Shown here piece by piece: positions 12,730 through 54,431 of a DNA stretch of 55,867 nt. Below the pieces are notes generated by a model. It was not told the origin of the DNA and ran no database searches. It saw nothing but the letters and a program-made list of their open reading frames with translations. Source of the DNA: Actinomycetes bacterium. Lineage in GTDB: Bacteria > Actinomycetota > Acidimicrobiia > Acidimicrobiales > Bog-793. Every line of letters starts with the position of its first letter. Position 1 is the stretch's first letter. Location of the stretch: the NCBI GenBank assembly GCA_021798985.1, contig JAJZBI010000025.1, forward strand, positions 1-55,867, given 5' to 3'. Made by a program: the position numbers and the translations under genes.

Positions 12730-14289
12730 ATGGGCAACAAGAAGTGGTGGACACTCGCTGCGGTGTGCCTTGGCACCTTCATGCTCTTGCTCGATATCAC
12801 GATCGTGTCCGTTGCCTTGCCACCGATCGAGCGCAGCCTCGGTGCCAGCTTCTCCGAGCTGCAGTGGGTCGTCGACGCCTACTCGCTGACACTCGCCTCG
12901 CTGTTGTTGACCGGTGGCTCGCTCGCCGACCTGTTCGGCCGCCGCAAGGTCTTCGTCGCCGGCGTGGCCGCGTTCACCTCCGGCTCGCTGCTTTGCGGCC
13001 TCGCCACGAGCCCGCTGTTCTTGATCTTGTCGCGCGGCTTCCAGGGGATCGGAGGCGCCGCCATGTTCTCGACGGCGCTCGCGCTGTTGGCCAACGCGTT
13101 CGGTGGCCGCGAGCGCGGGGTGGCCTTCGGCGTGTGGGGCGCGGTGACCGGCATCGCCGTCGCCGTGGGCCCCGTGCTCGGAGGTCTGATCACGAGCGGG
13201 CTGTCTTGGCGCTGGATCTTCTTTGTGAACGCGCCCTTCGGCATCGCGGCGATCGCCATCTCCCTGGCGCGGGTCGAAGAATCCCGAGAGCGCTCTGGCC
13301 GCCGGGTCGACTGGCCGGGCTTCGCCCTCTTCAGTGCCGCGCTCGTCTCACTCGTCTACGGCTTGATCCGCGCCAGCGAACAGGGGTTCGGCGACGCCGG
13401 CGTGCTCGCTTGCCTCGCGATCGCTGCGCTCGGCGTCGCTGCCTTCGTCCTCCTCGAGCGCCACAGCGCGTCGCCGATGTTCGATCTCGGCCTGTTCAAG
13501 GTGCCGACCTTTGTCGGCGGCCTGGTCGCGGCGTTCGGCCTGTCGGTCTCGGTCTTCTCGATCCTGCTGTACCTCGTGCTGTACCTCCAAGACGCCCTTG
13601 GCTATAGCGCGCTGCAGTCGGGGCTTCGCCTGCTCATCATCTCTGGCGCGATCCTCGTTGTCTCCTCCCTGACAGGCCGCCTGAGCGCGAGCGTCCCGAT
13701 CCGTGTTCTGATCGGCCCCGGGCTCGTCGTCTCGGGCGCCAGCCTTTTCGTGATGTCCGGGATCTCGGGCGACTCTTCATGGACCCACCTCGTGCCCGGC
13801 TTCGTCCTGGCGGGCGTGGGCGCGGGCCTGGTCAACCCGCCGCTCGCCTCGACGGCAATCGGCGTGGTCACGCCCTTTCGGGCGGGCATGGCATCGGGCA
13901 TCAACAGCACGTTGCGACAGGTAGGGATCGCGACCGGGATCGCCGCCCTCGGCTCGTTGTTCGCCACCGCCGAGCGTCACGCCGTCGTCGCGCGTGCCAG
14001 CAAGATCCCTGGGCTCGCCACGCACGCCGGTCAGATCGCGACGGCCCTGCGCAACGGCGCGGCACGCGCCGTGCTCGCGCGGATCCCCAAGCTGGAGCGC
14101 CCGCGTGTCGCCGTCATGCTGCGGGCCAGTTTTGCAAGCGGCCTCGATGAGATCTTGGTCATCGGGGGAGTGCTCGCCTGCGTGAGCGGCGTCGCCGCGT
14201 TCTTCTTGATCCGCAGCCAGGACTTCGTCGTGACGAGCTCCGCGCCCGCCGCGCCGACCGCGCGCGGCGAGCAGGCGCGCGACGTGTGA
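12730..14289 (+). CDS. MFS multidrug exporter, DHA2 (EmrB/QacA) family
   Basis: A 519-residue proton-coupled exporter with 14 predicted helices. The N-terminal helix carries the DHA2 motif LDITIVSVALPPIERSL (motif D1). Motif A is GSLADLFGRRKVFV near residues 63-76, motif B is LSRGFQGIGGAAMFS near 99-113, and motif C is GVWGAVTGIAVAVGPVLGG near 137-155. The second half ends with a long periplasmic loop before the last helix. GGAGGAGGG lies 5 nt before the ATG. It is divergent from the small membrane-protein pair; the 290-nt region between them must hold both promoters. Such pumps usually expel drugs or toxic metabolites, and the actual substrate cannot be read from sequence. Confidence 0.93.
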   Translation: MGNKKWWTLAAVCLGTFMLLLDITIVSVALPPIERSLGASFSELQWVVDAYSLTLASLLLTGGSLADLFGRRKVFVAGVAAFTSGSLLCGLATSPLFLILSRGFQGIGGAAMFSTALALLANAFGGRERGVAFGVWGAVTGIAVAVGPVLGGLITSGLSWRWIFFVNAPFGIAAIAISLARVEESRERSGRRVDWPGFALFSAALVSLVYGLIRASEQGFGDAGVLACLAIAALGVAAFVLLERHSASPMFDLGLFKVPTFVGGLVAAFGLSVSVFSILLYLVLYLQDALGYSALQSGLRLLIISGAILVVSSLTGRLSASVPIRVLIGPGLVVSGASLFVMSGISGDSSWTHLVPGFVLAGVGAGLVNPPLASTAIGVVTPFRAGMASGINSTLRQVGIATGIAALGSLFATAERHAVVARASKIPGLATHAGQIATALRNGAARAVLARIPKLERPRVAVMLRASFASGLDEILVIGGVLACVSGVAAFFLIRSQDFVVTSSAPAAPTARGEQARDV

Positions 14290-14421: not shown

Positions 14422-15354
14422 ATGAAGATGGTCTTGCTGGCGGCTGGGCACGGTCGCCGCTTCGGCGGGCTGAAGCAGCTCGCCCCGGTTGGCGATGGCG
14501 GTGAGGCGCTGATCGACTTCACGGTGCAACAGGCCCAGCGCGCCGGTTTCGAGGGCATTGTCCTTGTCGTGCGCGAGGAGATCCGCGCCGAGATGGAGCA
14601 CCACGTCGGCCGCGCCTGGCCGGCTGGCCTGCCCGTCGATGTGGTGGTGCAAGGCCCGCAGCCGGGGACCGTGCCAGCGGTGCTCGCCGCGGCGGCGGCC
14701 ATCGACGGGCCCTTCGCCGTGGCAAACGCCGATGACCTCTACGACGAGGCGGCGCTTGGCAGCATCGTCCGGCACTTTCGCGGCGATTGCGAGCGCCAGG
14801 TCCTCGTTGGCTACCGGCTCGCCAACACCGTGCTCACCAACCAGCCAGTGAAGCGCGGCCTGTGCGTCCTGGATGAGCAGGGGGACCTGCTTGACCTCGT
14901 CGAGCACCACGTCTGCCGGCGCCAGGACGGGGCCTTTGATGCCTCGCCGCTCTTTGGTGGAGACGAGAGCGCCCCCCGCGTCCTGCTCGGGGACGAGCCG
15001 GTCTCAATGAATCTCTGGGGATTCCATCACGAGATGCTCGCATTGCTCGAAGAGGCAGCAGCCGAGCATCGGCTCGCAGCGACGCGAAATCCCGGGAAAA
15101 CGCCCGCAGAGCTGCTGCTGCCCGAAGTGCTCGGGCAGCAGGTTCGGCACCAAAGGGCACGAGTGCGGGTCGTGGAGACCAGTGGCCGCTGCATCGGCCT
15201 CACCCACCGCGAGGACCTCCCGTTGGTGCGCGCGGCGCTCGCGCCACTCATCTTCCCAGCTCACGAGCCTGTCATTGGTGAAAGCGGGTGCGCGCTCGCC
15301 GGCCGAGGGCCCGCGCACGAACGTGCCGGTCGGGCCGATCTGGCGAGTGCGTGA
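14422..15354 (+). CDS. NTP-transferase-domain sugar nucleotidyltransferase
   Basis: This 310-residue protein has a GT-A type nucleotidyltransferase fold: VLLAAGHGRRFGGLKQLAPVG at the N-terminus (the LxxGxGxRxxxxxK nucleotide-binding signature), the metal-binding pair in VANADDLYDEAAL near residues 99-111, and SMNLWGFHHEML near 195-206, typical of glucose-1-phosphate thymidylyl/uridylyl-like enzymes. It probably activates a sugar or alcohol phosphate. ATG 14422 is preceded by GAGGAGG. It opens the run of co-directional genes that continues through a glycosyltransferase, AcpS, a carrier protein, an amino acid:carrier-protein ligase, a hydrolase-fold protein and a flippase, so it may supply the activated sugar for that pathway. 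The exact substrate is unknown. Confidence 0.78.
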   Translation: MKMVLLAAGHGRRFGGLKQLAPVGDGGEALIDFTVQQAQRAGFEGIVLVVREEIRAEMEHHVGRAWPAGLPVDVVVQGPQPGTVPAVLAAAAAIDGPFAVANADDLYDEAALGSIVRHFRGDCERQVLVGYRLANTVLTNQPVKRGLCVLDEQGDLLDLVEHHVCRRQDGAFDASPLFGGDESAPRVLLGDEPVSMNLWGFHHEMLALLEEAAAEHRLAATRNPGKTPAELLLPEVLGQQVRHQRARVRVVETSGRCIGLTHREDLPLVRAALAPLIFPAHEPVIGESGCALAGRGPAHERAGRADLASA

Positions 15355-15507
15355 GGATTGGCCCTCGCGCGCTGTGGGTACCTCTGAGAGCAGTCCGTGC
15401 CTCGCATGAGAGACGGAAACAACCAGTTGAAAGCAGTATTTGTCGCGCACATGCCGTTGCCGGCCCTGCGGTTCGCGCACCAGGACACCAACGAAAGAGG
15501 AGGGTTG

Positions 15508-16413
15508 ATGAGCAGCGAATCCCGGGCTGGTCGCCTCGGAACCGAGCGCGCGCTTCGGCCGCTCGAAGAAGGGGCTTCGGGGGAGACACGGCCCTTCGTG
15601 CTGATGCACGGGGCAGGAGGCCGCGAGCTACCCGCTGCGGTTCCGGCGGGGGTTCGAGTCAGCGTCGTGATCCCGGCCCGCAACGAGGCCGCCAATCTGC
15701 CGCACGTCTTCGCCCGCTTGCCAGAAGGGCTGTATGAGATCATCGTCGTCGACGGTCGCTCGACCGACGACACCGTGGAGGTGGCCCGCCGCCTGTATCC
15801 GAGCGTCCGCATCGTCCACCAGCAAGGCAAGGGCAAGGGCAACGCGCTCGCCGAGGGCTTCGCGGCCTGCACGGGCGACGTGATCGTGATGATCGATGCC
15901 GACCGCTCGACCGACCCTGCCGAGATCCCGCTGTTCGTCCAGCAGATCGTCGACGGGGCCGACTTTGCCAAGGGTTCCCGGTTCTTGCCGGACGGGGGGA
16001 GCTCTGACCTCACCCCGGTCCGCCGGCTCGGCAACGCCTTCTTGAATGGCATTGTCAACGTTCTCTACGGCACGAAGTATACGGACCTGTGCTATGGCTA
16101 CAACGCCTTCCGGCGCAGCGTCCTCGACTCGCTCGTCATCGACTGCGATGGCTTCGAGGTCGAGACGCTCATGAACATCCGGGTCGCGAAGCTCGGCATG
16201 AAGATCGCCGAGGTGCCGAGCTTTGAGTCGGCCCGGCTATACGGCGAGAGCAACCTCCGCCCGGTGCGCGACGGCCTGCGCGTCCTCCGCGTCGTGCTGC
16301 AAGAGCGCTTCCGCAAGACGATGCCCGTGCCCGCTGGCACGGGGCGCGGCGACGAGGACGGGTTCGTCCTCGCAGAAGGAGGGCCATGCGAGGCGCGCGT
16401 GGAGGTCGTCTGA
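15508..16413 (+). CDS. Family 2 glycosyltransferase (dolichol-phosphate mannosyltransferase-like)
   Basis: A 301-residue GT-A enzyme. After a 50-residue leader the catalytic domain begins VSVVIPARNEAANLPHVF, with EIIVVDGRSTDDTVEVA, a DxD-type motif in MIDADRS, and GSRFLPDGGSSDLTPVRRLGN, the DPM1-like acceptor region. YTDLCYGYNAFRR and CDGFEVETLMNIR follow. There are no strong C-terminal membrane helices, so it may act on a polyprenyl or other lipid phosphate at the membrane surface. Start ATG 15508 has AGAGGAGGG 4 nt upstream; the frame is open back to 15397 but without a ribosome site. Its last codons contain the ribosome site of acpS, showing translational coupling with the next gene. Confidence 0.88.
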   Translation: MSSESRAGRLGTERALRPLEEGASGETRPFVLMHGAGGRELPAAVPAGVRVSVVIPARNEAANLPHVFARLPEGLYEIIVVDGRSTDDTVEVARRLYPSVRIVHQQGKGKGNALAEGFAACTGDVIVMIDADRSTDPAEIPLFVQQIVDGADFAKGSRFLPDGGSSDLTPVRRLGNAFLNGIVNVLYGTKYTDLCYGYNAFRRSVLDSLVIDCDGFEVETLMNIRVAKLGMKIAEVPSFESARLYGESNLRPVRDGLRVLRVVLQERFRKTMPVPAGTGRGDEDGFVLAEGGPCEARVEVV

Positions 16414-16943
16414 GCCAAGGGCTCGCGACGAGAGACGAACGAACCGACGCCGCCGCGCACGAGCTCGTGGCGTCGGAGCTGGCGGCCGCACCGGGCAACG
16501 CTCCGGTGCGGCCGCAGGTGTCGGTGGCCATCGGTGTCGATCTCGTGGAGATCGCGCAGGTCGCGGCCGCGCTCGAGACCTTCGGGGAGCGGTATTTGCG
16601 GCGGCTCTTCACCTCGAGCGAGATCGACGCCTGCCGCCGTGCGGGCGGCGGCTATGCGATCGAGCGCCTGGCGACGCGCTTTGCCGCCAAGGAGGCGGCA
16701 CTCAAGATGCTCGAGCCCGCGCCGGACGAGGTGCCAGAGTGGCACGAGATCGAGGTCCGTTCCTTGCCCTCAGGTGCCTCCGAGATCGCCTTGGCCGGTG
16801 CCGCCGCGCGCCTCGCCGCGCGCCGCGCCATCCGCTCGGTTGCCATGAGCGCCAGCCACGAGGGCGGCTTTGCGACCGCCGTCGCCATCGGCTGGGGCGA
16901 ATCGTCCTGCCGGTGCAAATCAGTCGGTTTGGACAACGCCTGA
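16386..16943 (+). CDS. acpS: Holo-[acyl-carrier-protein] synthase
   Basis: The 185-residue product is an AcpS-type 4'-phosphopantetheinyl transferase, which moves the phosphopantetheine arm of CoA to a Ser of a carrier protein. The core motifs are GVDLVEI at residues 50-56 (Mg ligand D52) and TRFAAKEAALKML at 97-109 (E103); their 51-residue spacing matches the family. It is longer than the usual 120-130 aa because of a 45-residue N-terminal extension. AGGAGGGCC directly before ATG 16386, inside the end of the glycosyltransferase gene, supports this start and a 28-nt overlap. The next gene, 50 nt on, encodes a carrier protein, its likely substrate. Whether this is also the organism's fatty-acid AcpS cannot be decided from the window. 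Confidence 0.9.
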   Translation: MRGARGGRLSQGLATRDERTDAAAHELVASELAAAPGNAPVRPQVSVAIGVDLVEIAQVAAALETFGERYLRRLFTSSEIDACRRAGGGYAIERLATRFAAKEAALKMLEPAPDEVPEWHEIEVRSLPSGASEIALAGAAARLAARRAIRSVAMSASHEGGFATAVAIGWGESSCRCKSVGLDNA

Positions 16944-16993
16944 CCGGCAAATGCACGAATAGGCACGACGCATCGATGGAAGGAGCACCCCCA

Positions 16994-17239
16994 ATGGACG
17001 AGCCGATCCGCCGGATCCTCGGCGAGCACGCCCATCTTCAGGCCGACGTGGCCGAACTCGGCGACGACTCGGATCTCTACCAAGCTGGCTTGACCTCGCA
17101 CTCGAGCGTGAGCGTGATGCTCGCCCTGGAGGACGAGTTCGACGTGGAGTTTCCCCAGGAGATGCTGCGCAAGAAGACCTTCGGGTCGATCCACGCGATT
17201 CGCGACGCTCTCGCCCAGCTCGGAGCGGTGGTGGCCTGA
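16994..17239 (+). CDS. Small carrier protein (aminoacyl-carrier-protein type)
   Basis: An 81-residue acidic four-helix carrier protein. The expected phosphopantetheine site is S35 in YQAGLTSHSSVSVMLALED, where GLTS replaces the GxDS of fatty-acid ACPs. This variant is typical, as I recall, of the carrier proteins paired with SerRS-like amino acid:[carrier protein] ligases (Bradyrhizobium Bll0956/Bll0957 type). Helix III contains FPQEMLRKKTFGSIHAI. ATG 16994 has AAGGAG at a fair distance; another in-frame ATG at 16976 lacks a site. The gene ends in a TGATG overlap with the ligase gene, implying coupled translation and roughly equal amounts. AcpS is encoded just upstream. Confidence 0.88.
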   Translation: MDEPIRRILGEHAHLQADVAELGDDSDLYQAGLTSHSSVSVMLALEDEFDVEFPQEMLRKKTFGSIHAIRDALAQLGAVVA

Positions 17240-18210
17240 TGACAACGCTCGAGCACGCGGGCGCTGCACCCCCGACTGGCGTGCCGGCGCCTGCACCGAC
17301 GGCCGAGCACGGCGACCCCTACCGCGCCTTTCGGGACGAGCTGTTCGCCGCCGGCCTGCTCGTGCCCACCGGCGTCGACGGCCTCTACCTGCGTTCGGAG
17401 GCCTTCGAGTCGATCGTCCGTGGGATCGACGCGGCCGTCAGCAAGATGGCGGCAGTCGAAGCGCCGACCGTCTACCACTTCCCGCTCGTGGTGCCGGCTG
17501 GCTTGCTCGAGCGGACCGACTACGTGCGGTCGTTTCCCGACCTCATCGGGGTCCTCGACAGCTACGCGAAGGGTGAGGCCGGCTATGGCGACCTCCTCGC
17601 CGCCGCCGAGGAGGGCAGTTGGCCGCAGCACCTCGAGCACACTGGCCTCGGCCTGTGCTCGGCCGCCTGCCACCCGCTCTATCCGACGCTCGCGGGCAGC
17701 GAGATCCCACCGGCGGGGCGGCGCTTTGAGATCTTCGGTCAGGTGTTCCGGCACGAGCCGAGCGTCGACCCGGCGCGCCAGCAGGTGTTCCGCCAGCACG
17801 AGGTCGTCTTCGTCGGGGCACCGGCGGATGCCGCGGCGCATCGCGACGCCTGGGTGGAGCGCGGCCTCTCACTGCACCGCCGGCTCGGCCTTGTCGTCGA
17901 GGCGGTGGTGGCGAACGACCCCTTCTTCGGCCGGGGCGGCAGGATCCTCGCCGCCAACCAGCGTGCCGAGGCGTTGAAGATCGAGCTCGTCGCGCCGATC
18001 TGCTCGGCGGACCAGCCGACCGCGATCACCTCGGCGAACTGCCACCTCGACCACTTCGGCACGGCCTTCGGCCTGCGCCTCGGCGACGAGGTGGCGCACA
18101 GCGCGTGCGTGGGCTTCGGACTCGAGCGCATCGCGCTCGCCCTTTTGGCTGCGCACGGCTTGGAGTTCTCGAGCTGGCCGGCGAGCGTGCGCCAGGAGCT
18201 CGGTTGGTGA
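17239..18210 (+). CDS. Amino acid:[carrier protein] ligase, SerRS-like class II
   Basis: This 323-residue protein is the catalytic core of an atypical archaeal-type seryl-tRNA synthetase without a tRNA-binding arm. Family members adenylate a small amino acid and pass it to the phosphopantetheine of a carrier protein rather than to tRNA. Class II motif 2 is QVFRHEP near residues 168-174, continuing to FRQHEVVFVG (184-193); motif 3 is GFGLERIALAL at 292-302. Likely zinc ligands are C144, E188 and C290, with spacings of 44 and 102 that fit what I recall for the Bradyrhizobium enzyme (C131, E176, C279). The ATG overlaps the carrier-protein stop, and the next gene overlaps its own stop. The amino acid used (glycine or alanine in known cases) cannot be told here. 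Confidence 0.88.
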   Translation: MTTLEHAGAAPPTGVPAPAPTAEHGDPYRAFRDELFAAGLLVPTGVDGLYLRSEAFESIVRGIDAAVSKMAAVEAPTVYHFPLVVPAGLLERTDYVRSFPDLIGVLDSYAKGEAGYGDLLAAAEEGSWPQHLEHTGLGLCSAACHPLYPTLAGSEIPPAGRRFEIFGQVFRHEPSVDPARQQVFRQHEVVFVGAPADAAAHRDAWVERGLSLHRRLGLVVEAVVANDPFFGRGGRILAANQRAEALKIELVAPICSADQPTAITSANCHLDHFGTAFGLRLGDEVAHSACVGFGLERIALALLAAHGLEFSSWPASVRQELGW

Positions 18211-20000
18211 CCGAGACCCTCGCCAGCCCGCCGGCCGAAGCGGCCCCGGGTCCCGAGCTCGCGCTGGGTGGCCTCGCCGCGCCCGCCTCGGCGCGCGCCG
18301 TCCCCGTCTACTTCGGCGAGGGCGACGAGAGCCGCTTCGGCTGGCTCCACCTCCCCGAGGCCACGACGGCGCGCGCCGCGGTCGTGCTCTGCCCGCCCCT
18401 TGGGATCGAAGCGCTCAACGCGCACTGGGTGTACCGGCGCCTGGCCAGCGAGCTCGCGGCGTCCGGCGTGCTGGCGCTGCGATTCGACTATCGCGGCACC
18501 GGCGACTCGAGCGGCGAGGCGGATGGCGTCGCCGGCCTCGTCGAAGACGTTGCTGCGGCAATCCGCTTCGTGCGGGACTGCGGCGCCCCCCGGGTCGGCC
18601 TCGTTGGCCTGCGCGTCGGCGCCACCCTTGCGGCCGCCGCCGCCGAGAGCGAGCCGGTGGATGCGCTGGTGCTGTGGGACGTCTGCTCGGGGCGCTCGTT
18701 CCTGCGCGAGCAGCGCGCCCTCAAGCTCTTGAGCGTCGGCCCGTCGGCAGACGCGCCCGACGGCGCGGTGGAGCTGCTCGGCATGGTGCTGCCCAAAGAT
18801 GTCGCCGACGAGCTGCGCGCCACGGCGCTGCAGCCGAGCGAGGCGCCGCGCGCTCGCCGGAGCCTGTTGATCGAGCGCCCGGAGCGACCGCGGGACGAGC
18901 GGCTGCGCCGCGCCCTCGAGCACGAGGAACTGGAGCTGCTTGCAGCCGAGGGCCAGCACGAGTTCATCGATGTCGAGCCCGGCTACTCCCAGCCCCCCGA
19001 GCGGGTGATGAAGGACCTCGTGCACTGGCTCGACGCCCAGTTCCCCGCCGAGCGCGTGCCGGTGCTGAACGCCGGTCGCGAGAGCGCCGTCGTGCGTGCC
19101 GGCGATGGCTCGTGCCACACCGAGCGCACCGAGGTGATCGCGACCCACGGGCTCGCCGCCGTGCTGACCGAGCCGGCGCGGCGCGATCCTGCGGCCCCCG
19201 TGGCGTTCTTCTTGAACGCCGGGCTGATCCATCACGTCGGGCCGGGACGGCTGTGGGTCGACCTCGCCCGAGAGTTCGCCGCCCGCGGGATCGCGTCGGT
19301 CCGCTTCGATCTGCGCGGCATCGGCGATAGCGACGGCGCCGAGGCACCGATCCGCGGGGCCTATCCCCCTGAGGCGCTCGCCGATGTGGCCGCGGCGATC
19401 GCGCACTACTGCCCAGGAGGGGCGCGCGACGCGTACCTCGTCGGGCTGTGCTCGGGCGCCTATCACGCGGCCGAGGCGGCGATCGCGCTCGGCGCGCGCG
19501 CTGTCGGGCTGCTCAACCCGGCGTTGTTCTTCGACCCCGCCGAGCTGCGCGTCCCCCGCGAGGACGACGCCGCGCCCACGGCGGGGGCCGGGATCGCGAT
19601 GAACCCGCTCGTGCGCTGGATGCGCTCCAAGCGCGTCCTGCTCGATCTCGTGGAGTGGCGCCCGATCCGAACGCTGCGTCACAGCCCGCGCCTCACCGCG
19701 ATGCTCGACGGCGCGTACCTATTGTGGGCGGCCGCCGACCGGCTCGGGATCGCGAAGAGCCCGCTGCGGGTCATGGAGGCGCTGGCCGCGGCCGAGGTCG
19801 ACACGCTGCTCGTCTGCGGCAGTTGGGAGCGCCGACCCTTCGCGCGCTGGCGCAAGCGCACCCGGGCGCTCGAGCAGACCGGGGCGCTGCGCTATGTGAG
19901 CTTCACGAGCGATGACCACACCTTCTTCGAGGCCGGAAACCGCCGGCGCGCGGCGGCGCTCGTGTGCGAGCAGGCGACAAAGGCACTGGCTGGCCGATGA
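18207..20000 (+). CDS. Tandem alpha/beta hydrolase-fold protein (Arg lobe, Cys lobe)
   Basis: The 597-residue protein contains two alpha/beta-hydrolase domains (about 40-280 and 325-595). Both keep the family's oxyanion region and FDYRGTGDSSGE (93-104) or FDLRGIGDSDGA (367-378). At the nucleophile elbow the first lobe reads GLRVG (R136 in place of Ser) and lacks an obvious catalytic His, so it looks inactive. The second reads GLCSG with C415, plus a likely catalytic His in SDDHTFF near the end. Cys nucleophiles in this fold occur in acyltransferases and dienelactone hydrolases. Start GTG 18207 overlaps the ligase stop (GTGA), with GGAG upstream. Its place beside an aminoacyl-carrier pathway suggests transfer or hydrolysis of the aminoacyl thioester, which is an inference. 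Confidence 0.82.
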   Translation: MTETLASPPAEAAPGPELALGGLAAPASARAVPVYFGEGDESRFGWLHLPEATTARAAVVLCPPLGIEALNAHWVYRRLASELAASGVLALRFDYRGTGDSSGEADGVAGLVEDVAAAIRFVRDCGAPRVGLVGLRVGATLAAAAAESEPVDALVLWDVCSGRSFLREQRALKLLSVGPSADAPDGAVELLGMVLPKDVADELRATALQPSEAPRARRSLLIERPERPRDERLRRALEHEELELLAAEGQHEFIDVEPGYSQPPERVMKDLVHWLDAQFPAERVPVLNAGRESAVVRAGDGSCHTERTEVIATHGLAAVLTEPARRDPAAPVAFFLNAGLIHHVGPGRLWVDLAREFAARGIASVRFDLRGIGDSDGAEAPIRGAYPPEALADVAAAIAHYCPGGARDAYLVGLCSGAYHAAEAAIALGARAVGLLNPALFFDPAELRVPREDDAAPTAGAGIAMNPLVRWMRSKRVLLDLVEWRPIRTLRHSPRLTAMLDGAYLLWAAADRLGIAKSPLRVMEALAAAEVDTLLVCGSWERRPFARWRKRTRALEQTGALRYVSFTSDDHTFFEAGNRRRAAALVCEQATKALAGR

Positions 20001-20010
20001 GGCGACGCCC

Positions 20011-21483
20011 GTGAGCCCACCCGCGCTCAGGCTGCGCCGCGAAGGCGAGGCCGGCACGTGGTCCGACGGTGACGGCGCCAGCGCGCCGGCCGAGGAGCGG
20101 GCGCGCCCACGGGGCGCCCATCTCCGCCACCACGTGCGGGGCGCCCGTCACCACCTGCCGACCCTGCTCGCCGGCAAGGGCCTGATCGGCCGGTTCGTCT
20201 ACCTCGTGGCCACCCAGGTCGTCACCGTGCTCCTCGGCCTCGTCTACTGGACGACGGTCGCCCGCCTGGTCGTCCCCAACCAGGTCGGGCTCGCCTCGAC
20301 GGCGATGTTCGCTGCCTCGCTCATCGCCGCGCTCGGCGTCCTCGGCCTCACCTCTCTCGTGCTCGTGATCCTCGGGTCGGCTGACGAGGGCGAGCGGCGC
20401 GCCATCGTGTCGACCTCGGTGACCTTGGCGGCGATCGTCACCGGCGCGATCGCGCTCGGCGTCTGGGGGGCGTCGCGTTTCATGGGCCCGAGCTTCCGTC
20501 GCATCGGTGCCGACCCGGTGACCTCGCTGCTCTTCGTGCTCGGCACCGCCACCTTCACGTCGGTGACCGTGCTCGACGCCGTCTGCATCGGCCTGCGCCG
20601 TGGCCCGGTGCAGCTCGCGCGCAACATCGTGTCCGCGGTGCTGAAGGTCGCCCTGGCGGGGGCGTGCGTGCTGCTCGGCTTCAAGACGACGGCCGGGCTG
20701 CTCGGCGCCTGGGACGCCTCGATGCTGATCTCGGTGCCGATCGTGCCGCTGATGCTGCGGCTGCATCGCCACGCCCCCGCCTACTCCCTGCGCCAGCGGG
20801 TCGCGCTCATCCGGCGCTACGGGATGCTCTCGCTCCGCCACCACCTGCTCAACGTGGCGATCAGCTCGGTGGCCTTCTTCCTGCCCGTCGTGGCCGCGCT
20901 GTTCACGGTGCCCGAGCAGATGGCCTACTTCTCGATGGCCCAGCTCGTGTCGGCCTGTGCCCTGCTGCTGCCCTTCTTGTTGACGATGAGCCTGTTCGTC
21001 GAGAGCAGCGGCGACCACGAGCTGCTGCGCCGCAACCTGCGCCGCACGCTGCCGGTCGGCCTGGGCTGCTGCGTGCTCGTCCTCGCCGTGCTCGAGCCCG
21101 GCGGTCCGCTCGTGCTGTCGGTCTTTGGGCACAACTACGTGACCCACGGGCTCGTGCCGCTGCGCCTGCTCCTGCTCGGCGGCCTCCCCTATGTCGCAAA
21201 GGACCACTTCGTCGCGGTCCGTCGGGCCCAGGAGCGTCTCGGTGAGGCGGCGAAGATCGGGGCGGTCTCGACGCTCGCCGAGATCGCGGCGGCGGCGCTT
21301 GGCGGCTGGCTCGGCGGCCTCGACGGCCTGTGCCTTGGCTGGCTGTGCTGCACCGTGCTCGAGGCGACCTACTTCTTGCCCCGCGTGCTGTCGGTGCTGC
21401 GCTCGCCGGTCCCGACGCCGACGCTCGAGACCGAGCTCGCGCTCGAGACCGTGGCCTTGAGCGAGCCGAACGCCCTTCGCTGA
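20011..21483 (+). CDS. Wzx/MOP-superfamily flippase-like membrane protein
   Basis: A 490-residue integral membrane protein with about 12 helices beginning near residue 60, after an Arg-rich cytoplasmic N-terminus. The first helices, KGLIGRFVYLVATQVVTVLL and VYWTTVARLVVPNQVGLAST, match the polysaccharide-biosynthesis flippase pattern. Such proteins move lipid-linked sugars, or in some cases other amphipaths, across the cytoplasmic membrane. The assigned start is GTG 20011, 10 nt after the preceding stop; the ribosome site is weak, and coupling with the upstream gene is likely. It closes the carrier-protein cluster and so would export whatever lipid-linked glycan that cluster makes. Confidence 0.82.
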   Translation: MSPPALRLRREGEAGTWSDGDGASAPAEERARPRGAHLRHHVRGARHHLPTLLAGKGLIGRFVYLVATQVVTVLLGLVYWTTVARLVVPNQVGLASTAMFAASLIAALGVLGLTSLVLVILGSADEGERRAIVSTSVTLAAIVTGAIALGVWGASRFMGPSFRRIGADPVTSLLFVLGTATFTSVTVLDAVCIGLRRGPVQLARNIVSAVLKVALAGACVLLGFKTTAGLLGAWDASMLISVPIVPLMLRLHRHAPAYSLRQRVALIRRYGMLSLRHHLLNVAISSVAFFLPVVAALFTVPEQMAYFSMAQLVSACALLLPFLLTMSLFVESSGDHELLRRNLRRTLPVGLGCCVLVLAVLEPGGPLVLSVFGHNYVTHGLVPLRLLLLGGLPYVAKDHFVAVRRAQERLGEAAKIGAVSTLAEIAAAALGGWLGGLDGLCLGWLCCTVLEATYFLPRVLSVLRSPVPTPTLETELALETVALSEPNALR

Positions 21484-51270: not shown

Positions 51271-51753
51271 TCACCGCGGCTCGAGCGATGCCCCGAGGCG
51301 CTCGCAGCTGGCCTCGACGTGGCGGGCGAGGTCGAACAGGTCGTCGCGCACGAGCTCGAGGAGGTTGCGCTCGTCCGCGCTCGTCACCTCGTCGATGCGG
51401 TAGGCGAGGGCGTCGATCGACTGGGCGAGCGCGGCGCGGTACTCGAGCTCCTGGCGGAAGTAGGTGCCGAGGGCGTGCTCGAGGTAGCGGTGGATGAAGC
51501 GCTTCACGCGCGCCTTTGGGCCGCGGCCCGACGGCGGCGGCCCGAGCGCCTCCATGTTCCAGTAGTGGTGCAGGTGGTGGATCGCCGGGTGGAGGTGGAT
51601 GGGCTCCCGGTTCATCCGCCGCATCAGCTCGTCGAAGGTCGCCTGGGGCGACCACTGCCGCGGCGCCTCGGTGGCGTTCGCGGCGAGGATCGCCCTCAGG
51701 TGCTCGACGACGAGTTCGGCGTCGAGGCGTGTGTCGCCCGGTAGATGTTCCAA
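51271..51753 (-). CDS. Small helical protein of the glycosyltransferase operon
   Basis: A 160-residue mostly helical protein. MNREPIHLHPAIHHLHHYWNMEALG contains a cluster of His and aromatic residues, and the C-terminal half (GTYFRQELEYRAALAQSIDALAYRIDEV) is a long amphipathic helix. A GTG start at 51786 is possible, but TTG 51753 has AGGAGG 7 nt upstream and fits better; either way it overlaps the end of the double glycosyltransferase gene. Similar ORFs accompany family-2 and GT4 genes in actinobacterial polysaccharide loci; I cannot assign a role. Confidence 0.7.
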   Translation of the reverse strand: MEHLPGDTRLDAELVVEHLRAILAANATEAPRQWSPQATFDELMRRMNREPIHLHPAIHHLHHYWNMEALGPPPSGRGPKARVKRFIHRYLEHALGTYFRQELEYRAALAQSIDALAYRIDEVTSADERNLLELVRDDLFDLARHVEASCERLGASLEPR

Positions 51754-54431
51754 CGCTCTTCCTCCTGCACCGTCGAGAGCGGGCACCAGTATCGCCAGTG
51801 GCTGAGGTGCTCGTTGACGTACGGGTCGCCCCCCGCGATCGTCGGCCCCCAGCGCTCGATGATCCGGCGCCCCTCGACGAGGTCGTCGGTGTGGCCGCGG
51901 CTCTTTGACTCGTGGTGGATCAGCTCGGCGAGCGGCTCGTAGACCACGAGGTAGCCCTTCTCGCGCAGCTTGAGGCAGAAGTCGACGTCGTTGAAGGCGA
52001 CCGGGAGCCGCTCGTCGAAGCCGCCGACGGCATCGAAGACCTCGCGGCGCGTCATCATGCAGGCGCCGGTGACCACCGTGCAGTTGCGCGTCTGGATGGC
52101 CATCGAGGCGTAGCCCGGCTGGTCGGCGGGCAGGTTCTTCAGCACGTGGCCGGCGATGCCGCCGAGGCCGAGCACGACGCCGGCGTGCTGGATCGTCTGG
52201 TCCGGGTACAGCAGGCGCCCGCCGACTGCGCCGACCTCGGGGCGCTGGACGTGGGCGACGAGGGCGTGCAACCAGCCGCCGACGCGCGCCTCGATGTCGT
52301 TGTTCATGAACAACAAGACGTCGCCCGAGGCACGCCGCGCCGCGGCGTTGTTGATCGCCGGCCAGTTGAACGGCCCGGGCGCCTCGACGACCTGCACGCC
52401 GTCCTCGGCGACCAGGCGCTCGAGGAGCTCGGCGGTCTCGGGCAGCTCGCTGCCGTTGTCGACGAGCACGAGCTCATAGCGCCCGTAGCCGGGATCCTCG
52501 CGCAACGATGCGGCGCACGTGGCGAGCAGGGCCGGCTCGTCGCGAAAGGGGATGATGATGCTGACGAGCGGCTGGCCGACGACCGTCCGCCGGACGTGGT
52601 AGCGGCCGGGAAAGCGCGCCTCTTGGGTCACCTCGCCCGCCTCGCCGCGGCGCGCCAGCGCGTCCCGCAGCACCCGCTCGCCGGCGGCGAAGGCCCAAGG
52701 CTTGGCCTCGGCCCCGCCGGCGGTGGAGCCGGCCAGCGAGCGCCAGTGGTAGAGGATGTCGGCGACGTGCACGACGCGGCGCGCCCGCTCGGTGCTGCGC
52801 AGCGCGAGATCCCAGTCCTCGCTGCCGTCAAAGGCGCTGCGGAAGCCCCCGACCTGCTCGACGAGCGAGCGGCGGATCACCGTCAGGTGGGCGAGATAGG
52901 CGTAGCTCATCAACAAGTCGGGCGACCACTCGGGCTTGAAGAAGGGGTCGAAGCGCTCGCCGAGCTGGTTGATCTTGTCTTCGTCGCTGTAGAGGACGTC
53001 GGCCTCGGGCTCCCGCGCGATCGCCGTGGCGACCGCGCCGAGGGCATGGGGGGCGAGCTCGTCGTCGTGGTCCAAGAAGGTGACGAACTCGCCCGTGGCG
53101 AGCTCGAGGGCAGTGTTGCGGGCGGCCGAGATGCCGCCGCTCTCGGCGCGAAGCGTCACCGAGATGCGCGGGTCGCGCCCCGCGAGGTCGCGCAGGTAGG
53201 TGGCGATCTCCTCGGACCCCGAGCCGTCGTCGCAGCACACGAGCTGCCAGGAGGCGAAGTCCTGGGCGAGCACCGAGCCGACGCAGCGCTCGAGCGCCCA
53301 CAGCGGGGGGCGGTAGACCGGGACGACCACCGAGACGAGCGGGCTGGCGACGTCGGCCGGCGCGGTGCGCGCCTGGCGCGGCGGAGGATCGGTGTCCGCA
53401 CCCACGCTGGTTGGGTGCCCGTGGGTGCGGAGCCAGCGGTGGTAGGCGGCGAGATCCTCGGCGGCGTTGAGGGGATAGGGCCCCCCATCCTCGGGGGTGC
53501 TGCGATCCTCGCCCTCGACGCGGCGCTCTGGGGGCTCCGCGGGCGCCGGACGCGCCGGGGCCGGCGCGGCGAGCAGGCGTTCGATCTGGGCCGCGGACCA
53601 CTCGACGGCGACCAGCGCGCCCTCGAGGTCGTCGGCTGCCGCCACGAGCGCGCTCGCCCACGGGCTCGACGCGCCGATCTTGGGCGCGAAGACCTCGTGA
53701 GGCCCCGCGCAGCGCGCCAGCTCAGCGTCGAGGGCGAGCTGCTCGCCGAGCAAGAGCCCGGCGCGCGCCCCGGCCTCGGCGCGGCGGGGCGGGGGCGGCG
53801 CTGGCGCCGGGCGGTGCTGCGCGACGCCGTGCTCTGCGAGGAAGGACGCGAGGTCCTCGCTCACGCCGGCTCCTGCGTCGGCGACGAAGACGGCCATCGC
53901 CTGCAGGCTCGAGAGCGCGCGGCGGAGCCAGCGCTCGCGGCGGGCGATCGCCGCGACGGCCTCGGCGTCCGACGCGTGCCGGCTCGCCAGCGTGCCGAGG
54001 GGCTCGGTCGCCAGCACCGCGACCAGCGGCCGCTCGCCGGGGAGGACCTCGCGCCAGAATCCGAGCAGCTCGGCGTGGCGGGCGTCGTACCAGATGGCGG
54101 TGCGCTCAGGGGCGGGGAAGGATGCCGAGAACGACGCGAGGGCGCGGCCGCGTAGCCCGGCGATGGTCGCGGAGCGCCAGAACGGGCCGCTCGCCCCGGA
54201 GCGGGCATGGGAGCTGGCGAGGGCGGCGAGCTCCTCGCCGAGCGCGGACAGCCGGCCGGCCCCGCCGAGGGCCGGCGAGGTGCCGAGGACGAGGTCGGCC
54301 GGCCCGAGCGCAGCGAGCTGGCGGGCGAGCGCCTGGCAGGCGGCGGGGTCGTCGCCGACGAGGACGACGCAGGGTGCCGGCGAGAGTGCGGCGGCCGGTC
54401 GAATCACCGCCGCTTGCTTCGTGTCCGTCAT
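51696..54431 (-). CDS. Double-domain family 2 glycosyltransferase
   Basis: A 911-residue protein with a poorly conserved N-terminal region (1-370) followed by two GT-A family-2 domains. The first begins VSVVVPVYRPPLWALERCVGSVL and has VCCDDGSGSEEI and the DxD-like FLDHDDELAPHAL. The second begins VSIIIPFRDEPALLATCAAS with VDNGSELPET, FMNNDIEAR and the late VVTGACMMTRREVFDAVGGFDERL and FNDVDFCLKLREKG (ED-type catalytic pair). Such twin enzymes, for example WsaE-like rhamnosyltransferases, add two sugars in turn to an O-antigen-type chain. It starts the minus-strand operon with the small helical protein and the GT4-like gene, and lies 90 nt from the divergent GNAT gene. Confidence 0.85.
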   Translation of the reverse strand: MTDTKQAAVIRPAAALSPAPCVVLVGDDPAACQALARQLAALGPADLVLGTSPALGGAGRLSALGEELAALASSHARSGASGPFWRSATIAGLRGRALASFSASFPAPERTAIWYDARHAELLGFWREVLPGERPLVAVLATEPLGTLASRHASDAEAVAAIARRERWLRRALSSLQAMAVFVADAGAGVSEDLASFLAEHGVAQHRPAPAPPPPRRAEAGARAGLLLGEQLALDAELARCAGPHEVFAPKIGASSPWASALVAAADDLEGALVAVEWSAAQIERLLAAPAPARPAPAEPPERRVEGEDRSTPEDGGPYPLNAAEDLAAYHRWLRTHGHPTSVGADTDPPPRQARTAPADVASPLVSVVVPVYRPPLWALERCVGSVLAQDFASWQLVCCDDGSGSEEIATYLRDLAGRDPRISVTLRAESGGISAARNTALELATGEFVTFLDHDDELAPHALGAVATAIAREPEADVLYSDEDKINQLGERFDPFFKPEWSPDLLMSYAYLAHLTVIRRSLVEQVGGFRSAFDGSEDWDLALRSTERARRVVHVADILYHWRSLAGSTAGGAEAKPWAFAAGERVLRDALARRGEAGEVTQEARFPGRYHVRRTVVGQPLVSIIIPFRDEPALLATCAASLREDPGYGRYELVLVDNGSELPETAELLERLVAEDGVQVVEAPGPFNWPAINNAAARRASGDVLLFMNNDIEARVGGWLHALVAHVQRPEVGAVGGRLLYPDQTIQHAGVVLGLGGIAGHVLKNLPADQPGYASMAIQTRNCTVVTGACMMTRREVFDAVGGFDERLPVAFNDVDFCLKLREKGYLVVYEPLAELIHHESKSRGHTDDLVEGRRIIERWGPTIAGGDPYVNEHLSHWRYWCPLSTVQEEERWNIYRATHASTPNSSSST

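Follow-up and report, generated by a model that had tools for sequence, protein, structure and literature searches.

The 55,867-nucleotide contig JAJZBI010000025.1 (assembly GCA_021798985.1) of an Actinomycetes bacterium, hereafter called the window, carries at positions 14422-21483 a cluster of seven genes that, in our reading, would encode a compact aminoacyl-carrier-protein pathway in which a small amino acid is attached to a lipid-linked sugar or glycan that is then exported. We give this reading a probability of about 0.45. In the window, genes for a 4'-phosphopantetheinyl transferase (AcpS), a carrier protein (ACP), a ligase resembling seryl-tRNA synthetase (SerRS; here LIG) and a tandem alpha/beta-hydrolase (HYD) stand beside those for a nucleotidyltransferase (NTase), a family-2 glycosyltransferase (GT2) and a probable flippase (FLIP). 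In the proposed route, AcpS would convert ACP to its holo form at S35, and LIG, using ATP and Zn2+, would activate an amino acid and then load it on the carrier thiol. The aminoacyl group would next form a thioester with Cys415 of HYD (triad C415-E541-H571), and HYD would transfer it to a sugar amine or hydroxyl. The acceptor would be supplied by NTase, presumed to make an NDP-sugar, and by GT2, presumed to be a polyprenyl-phosphate sugar synthase, and FLIP would move the product to the outer face. The identity of the amino acid, transfer rather than hydrolysis by HYD, the acceptor and the export step are the parts of this scheme that we infer.

Ligases of this family are established as enzymes that load carrier proteins, according to a 2022 review that cites Mocibob 2010 and 2013 (PMC9437257); the biological role of the family was described there as still unknown. 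A note in proof of 2010 (PMC2922099) noticed genes for a carrier, a redox enzyme, a glycosidase, liposaccharide functions and Atu2574, a conserved protein of unknown function; it predicted that enzymes of the ligase family join an amino acid to a cell-surface sugar derivative, and proposed Atu2574 as the amide ligase. By our reading of its place in the operon, Atu2574 is a DUF1839 protein; a survey of 2023 assigned DUF1839 to the papain-like superfamily and suggested a glycan-related role from context (PMC10318531). The sequence-only reading of this DNA had joined aminoacyl-carrier chemistry to glycan assembly and presented the result as an undescribed system. The joint logic is supported, but its central idea is a rediscovery, because the little-known 2010 note in proof had predicted it. 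New here are the wide distribution of the operon, the frequent presence of HYD with its Cys/Arg pattern, the link of HYD to the exosortase-A hydrolases, and a compact variant that lacks the predicted amide ligase and carries a candidate transferase with a Cys nucleophile. Our literature search found no description of the compact variant or of a role for HYD.

Gene cluster and loading enzymes

All seven genes lie on the + strand and are mostly overlapping or closely spaced (Table 1), in agreement with the sequence-only reading; GT2 and AcpS overlap by 28 nt, ACP and LIG by 1 nt, and LIG and HYD by 4 nt. Purine-rich sequences resembling ribosome-binding sites are found 5' of NTase, GT2 (AGAGGAGG), AcpS, ACP and HYD. 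The same seven genes are present in the same order in L028, a locus of an independent actinobacterial genome, with protein identities of 70-94%. The dN/dS values between both loci were 0.18 for NTase, 0.10 for GT2, 0.40 for AcpS, 0.15 for ACP, 0.12 for LIG, 0.18 for HYD and 0.10 for FLIP, and thus all seven genes are under purifying selection. Since L028 keeps the order with dN/dS values of 0.10-0.40, the arrangement is not due to chance. Co-occurrence of all seven families, which the earlier reading had proposed to look for, was found in L028; the complete set in the order of the window was detected in these two loci only.

LIG scored 363.3 bits against NF005479 (cut-off 357) and ACP 107.8 bits against NF005480 (cut-off 72), and the phosphopantetheine serine of the GLTS motif is indeed S35. 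LIG is homologous to the solved structures 4h2w and 3mey (Bll0957) over residues 23-322. The alignment places the Zn ligands at C144, E188 and C290, an assignment guided in part by the site of the methanogenic SerRS; the class II motif 2 and 3 residues R171, E173 and R297 are also present. Like the ligases of the Bll0957 type, with which it shares the sequence family (NF005479) and these residues, LIG has a partner carrier gene and no N-terminal tRNA-binding domain; unlike them, it stands together with AcpS, HYD and a glycan module.

To place these proteins in a broader context, one genome per species was scanned, which gave 80 ligase loci; with loci from whole genomes added, the analysis comprised 89 core ligases. 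It should be noted that the set was started from the window's own ligase and is biased to its closer relatives, that several source genomes are fragmentary metagenome-assembled genomes (MAGs) with doubtful names, and that the association counts given below ignore phylogeny. The Zn and class II motif residues are conserved across the 89 relatives, and the carrier motif is GLTS or GMTS in 74/86. The ligase is rare, occurring in 3/296 genomes of the window's class and in 10/396 of its phylum, several of the latter being distant. In the window genome this ligase occurs once, while AcpS was matched twice and PP-binding three times, which makes AcpS and ACP appear to be reserved for the cluster.

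Positions 145 and 268 of the ligase (P0005 numbering) split the family mainly into Y/Y and H/C pairs, the window having H/C and Bll0957 Y/Y. These pairs may mark different amino-acid specificities; predicting the substrate from them was dropped, since the analysis linked neither pair to a substrate. Distant ligase-like proteins (25-33% identity) of other actinobacterial genomes (L023-L027), mostly without HYD and DUF1839, probably serve separate functions.

With respect to the borders, a major facilitator superfamily (MFS) efflux gene (12730-14289) lies directly upstream of NTase. We rejected it as a cluster member because it has no counterpart in L028, and therefore the left edge was set at NTase. 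On the right, synteny between the window and L028 extends past FLIP into genes of the GNAT, dienelactone-hydrolase-like and malic-enzyme-like types; that edge is therefore set by function and not by synteny. The start of FLIP is ambiguous, GTG codons at 20011 or 20134 being alternatives to the tabulated start.

Table 1. Genes of the cluster in the window, with the basis of each assignment.
Gene	Position	Strand	Product	Basis
NTase	14422-15354	+	310 aa, MobA/sugar-1-phosphate-type nucleotidyltransferase	PF12804 45.9 bits, PF00483 44.6 bits
GT2	15508-16413	+	301 aa, family-2 glycosyltransferase	PF00535 100 bits, DAD motif
AcpS	16386-16943	+	4'-phosphopantetheinyl transferase	PF01648 55.7 bits
ACP	16994-17239	+	81 aa carrier protein, S35 in GLTS	NF005480, Pfam PP-binding
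LIG	17239-18210	+	323 aa SerRS-like amino acid:[carrier protein] ligase	NF005479
HYD	18207-20000	+	597 aa tandem alpha/beta-hydrolase, GTG start	Pfam, structure model
FLIP	19912-21483	+	polytopic membrane protein, probable MOP/Wzx-like flippase	PF01943 below cut-off, hydrophobic segments

The wider operon and its compact variant

The sequence-only reading had made its proposal depend on gene order being conserved beyond the carrier-ligase pair. We checked this point, and such conservation is found across phyla. The common order is (AcpS)-ACP-ACAD-LIG-DUF1839-GH2, usually with HYD, where ACAD is an acyl-CoA-dehydrogenase-like protein and GH2 a glycosidase. As the records are named, this operon occurs in about nine phyla: Actinomycetota, Pseudomonadota, Planctomycetota, Acidobacteriota, Verrucomicrobiota, Gemmatimonadota, Myxococcota, Chloroflexota and Bdellovibrionota. 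When members were scored with profiles built in this analysis, the 48 loci flanked on each side by 6 kb or more contained ACP in 46 cases, ACAD in 40, DUF1839, GH2 and HYD in 36 each, and AcpS in 20. The group AcpS-ACP-LIG-HYD is kept together in L028, L033, L062, L098 and others, and DUF1839 coexists with HYD in many loci. A comparison of DUF1839 with solved structures gave no useful match.

The window departs from this pattern. DUF1839 (PF08893) had no match in the whole window genome, while the same search matched strongly in four relatives; ACAD and GH2 were not found beside the window's ligase, the search for them being confined to that neighborhood. Compared with the pathway predicted in 2010 (PMC2922099), the cluster thus shares the ACP, the ligase and nearby surface-saccharide genes (NTase, GT2 and the probable flippase), but no redox enzyme, Atu2574-type protein or glycosidase is found next to the ligase; on the other hand, HYD and AcpS, neither of them named in that prediction, are present. 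Among relatives, L029 has GT2-AcpS-ACP-ACAD-LIG-DUF1839-GH2-NTase-HYD, that is, six of the window's seven genes plus three extra, in a contig that ends inside HYD; L033 has GT2-AcpS-ACP-LIG-HYD. The window and L028 fall into one group of the ligase tree with the full-operon loci L029, L030 and L031, and for this reason the compact form of the window probably arose by loss. Similar compact loci are found elsewhere on the tree. A single clade of compact clusters was considered and discarded: compact and full forms alternate with 14 changes, no better than with shuffled labels.

Two further observations were made in this set. In one genome (L022, G423:C1, 5147-6841 and 13920-19752) two ligases lie about 9 kb apart, one in a divergent compact AcpS-ACP-LIG set and the other in an ACP-ACAD-LIG-DUF1839-GH2 set, which suggests that this genome runs two parallel aminoacyl systems. 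L055 and L059 come from MAG records titled Klebsiella pneumoniae, and their ligases group with environmental proteobacterial MAGs; these names are probably wrong.

HYD as candidate transferase

The sequence-only reading had called HYD a possible thioester transferase, and the proposal gains from a catalytic Cys that does not vary among homologues. The structure model (mean pLDDT 86.3) shows two alpha/beta-hydrolase domains. The C-terminal domain has the nucleophile elbow GLCSG, whose Cys415 is present in 50/50 homologues, and it conserves His571 in 48/50 and Asp or Glu at position 541 in 46/50 (E541 in the window); in the N-terminal domain the nucleophile position is occupied by an arginine (Arg136) in 49/50. 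Polyhydroxyalkanoate synthases also have a Cys nucleophile in an alpha/beta-hydrolase fold, and acyl transfer is established for them. By analogy, we infer that the Cys nucleophile favours transfer over hydrolysis in HYD.

HYD is also associated with the carrier and the ligase in the genomes. Among 13 ACP-bearing loci without DUF1839 that are not cut by a contig end, 11 have HYD within 6.5 kb. In the 396 genomes of the phylum, scored with an alignment of HYD itself, four of the six genomes with a strong ligase match are among the six with a strong full-length HYD match (P ~2e-7, kinship ignored). TIGR03101 was tried as a co-occurrence marker and abandoned as too loose, for it matches general hydrolases in 216/396 genomes.

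HYD resembles the paired exosortase A hydrolases in the order of the two units (hydr2 followed by hydr1), in the Arg and Cys at the nucleophile positions and in the polysaccharide context; it differs in being fused as one protein and in scoring below both cut-offs (TIGR03100, 68.3 vs 168.45 bits; TIGR03101, 96 vs 202.75 bits). At L138 (G324:C64, 193-9506) a hydrolase pair scoring above both cut-offs shares the Arg and Cys of HYD and follows genes resembling pyruvate dehydrogenase (PDH) E1/E2 and an open reading frame (ORF) of 89 residues, which Pfam did not recognise as a carrier. At L139 (G013:C20) the neighbours of such a pair are a PP-binding protein, an AMP-binding ligase and an acyl-CoA dehydrogenase; the loading enzymes of both loci are thus of other kinds than LIG. 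At L158, relatives of HYD adjoin a non-ribosomal peptide synthetase (NRPS) protein with A-T-TE domains and a P450. The recurrence of HYD-type proteins beside carriers with differing loading enzymes points to an action on the carrier-bound acyl group; our literature search found no paper on HYD-type proteins together with carrier proteins.

HYD could also be a proofreading thioesterase that clears wrongly or idly loaded carrier, the transferase being encoded elsewhere. Its fold is that of hydrolases, and the nearest structures found by Foldseek are monoglyceride lipases and feruloyl esterases, which are serine enzymes; the many loci in which DUF1839 accompanies HYD would also fit. Nevertheless, the nucleophile is Cys and not Ser in every homologue, which suits acyl transfer, and DUF1839, likely the published transferase candidate, is without a match in the window genome. 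We consider the thioesterase explanation unlikely, and HYD appears from its sequence to be the likeliest transferase of the window's cluster. A broader proposal, possible but rather doubtful in our judgement, is that HYD and its exosortase-A relatives form a general acyl-carrier transferase which passes acyl groups from interchangeable loaders (the SerRS-like ligase, an AMP-binding ligase, possibly PDH-like enzymes) to lipid-linked sugars. The window cluster would then be its minimal form, dispensing with an enzyme that the sole prediction we found requires.

Glycan genes and competing readings

Pfam and NCBIfam models agree with the gene identities proposed earlier in six of the seven cases. 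The best NCBIfam matches of NTase, Arch_glmU and AglF, are both below cut-off; for GT2 the nearest families are AglJ and the dolichyl-phosphate hexose transferases (TIGR04182 149.5 bits, below the cut-off of 325). GT2 adjoins AcpS in the window, L028, L029 and L033, NTase is at the ligase locus in the window, L028 and L029, and FLIP lies downstream of HYD in the window, L028 and L030. In G047, G131 (twice) and G142, other genomes of the window's class in which no ligase was found, relatives of GT2 and FLIP also stand no more than about 5 kb apart; one of these loci carries further GT2 domains and a polysaccharide deacetylase. Hence, the glycan module occurs alone and joined the aminoacyl module in the window's lineage. 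Apart from the cluster, a tandem GT2 protein is encoded 30 kb away on the - strand (51696-54431); a relative with 31% identity lies between GT2 and FLIP relatives in L153, and the protein may belong to the same glycan pathway.

This independent occurrence, together with the fact that most ligase loci are without NTase, GT2 and FLIP, is what would be expected if AcpS-ACP-LIG-HYD and NTase, GT2 and FLIP were chance neighbours with no common product. We find this very unlikely, as the linkages of GT2 to AcpS and those of NTase and FLIP recur in relatives, the coding regions of GT2 and AcpS overlap, and other ligase loci carry other glycosyltransferases. Among 118 other ORFs sampled around 20 loci, glycosyltransferases top the list (12 of GT4 type and 3 GT2, with 3 Bac_transf), an enrichment of 17/118 against a background assumed to be 4% (P ~5e-6).

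The aminoacyl-ACP could alternatively feed a secreted small molecule, such as an aminoacylated sugar metabolite with a side chain like that of butirosin, instead of a surface glycan. The MFS efflux gene next to NTase and the NRPS and P450 neighbours at L158 agree with this; butirosin transfer of the BtrH type likewise moves an ACP-borne acyl group to an aminosugar, but the BtrH domain is papain-like (PMC10318531), and HYD has an alpha/beta-hydrolase fold. Against a secreted product, the MFS gene is absent from L028, the neighbours across the family are envelope-type glycosyltransferases and sugar transferases, and the relatives of GT2 and FLIP pair in polysaccharide-like loci. A secreted product is in our opinion improbable.

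The comparison with D-alanylation made in the sequence-only reading holds for the logic, since DltABCD also carries an amino acid as a carrier thioester bound for an envelope polymer. It does not extend to the enzymes: the window uses a SerRS-like ligase and not an AMP-binding DltA, and membership in the Dlt system was rejected, as the seven proteins gave no AMP-binding, MBOAT DltB or DltD match, with ACP reaching 17.4 bits against the DltC model (cut-off 68).

Several points weigh against aminoacylation of a lipid-linked glycan by the window's cluster. Alpha/beta-hydrolase folds are often plain hydrolases. No HYD lies within reach of about one third of the full operons, which rules it out as the sole transferase of the family. 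A link of the ligase to NTase, GT2 and FLIP is seen in few lineages only. Finally, FLIP, which the earlier reading had named a flippase, is weakly identified (PF01943 17.1 bits vs cut-off 28.2); it has 13 hydrophobic segments, and its structure model (pLDDT 38, from an alignment with two usable homologues) was discarded.

The ligases have been known as carrier loaders since 2010 and their structures are solved, yet the 2022 review still gave no role for the loaded amino acid. The window offers a small testable unit, in which seven genes cover the activation and loading of the carrier, a candidate transferase, the supply of sugar and a probable exporter, and it separates two candidate transferases, DUF1839 being absent and HYD present. 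If HYD is the transferase, the paired "hydrolases" of exosortase-A polysaccharide loci would be explained too, and the compact cluster could help to reveal the purpose of a widespread ligase family.

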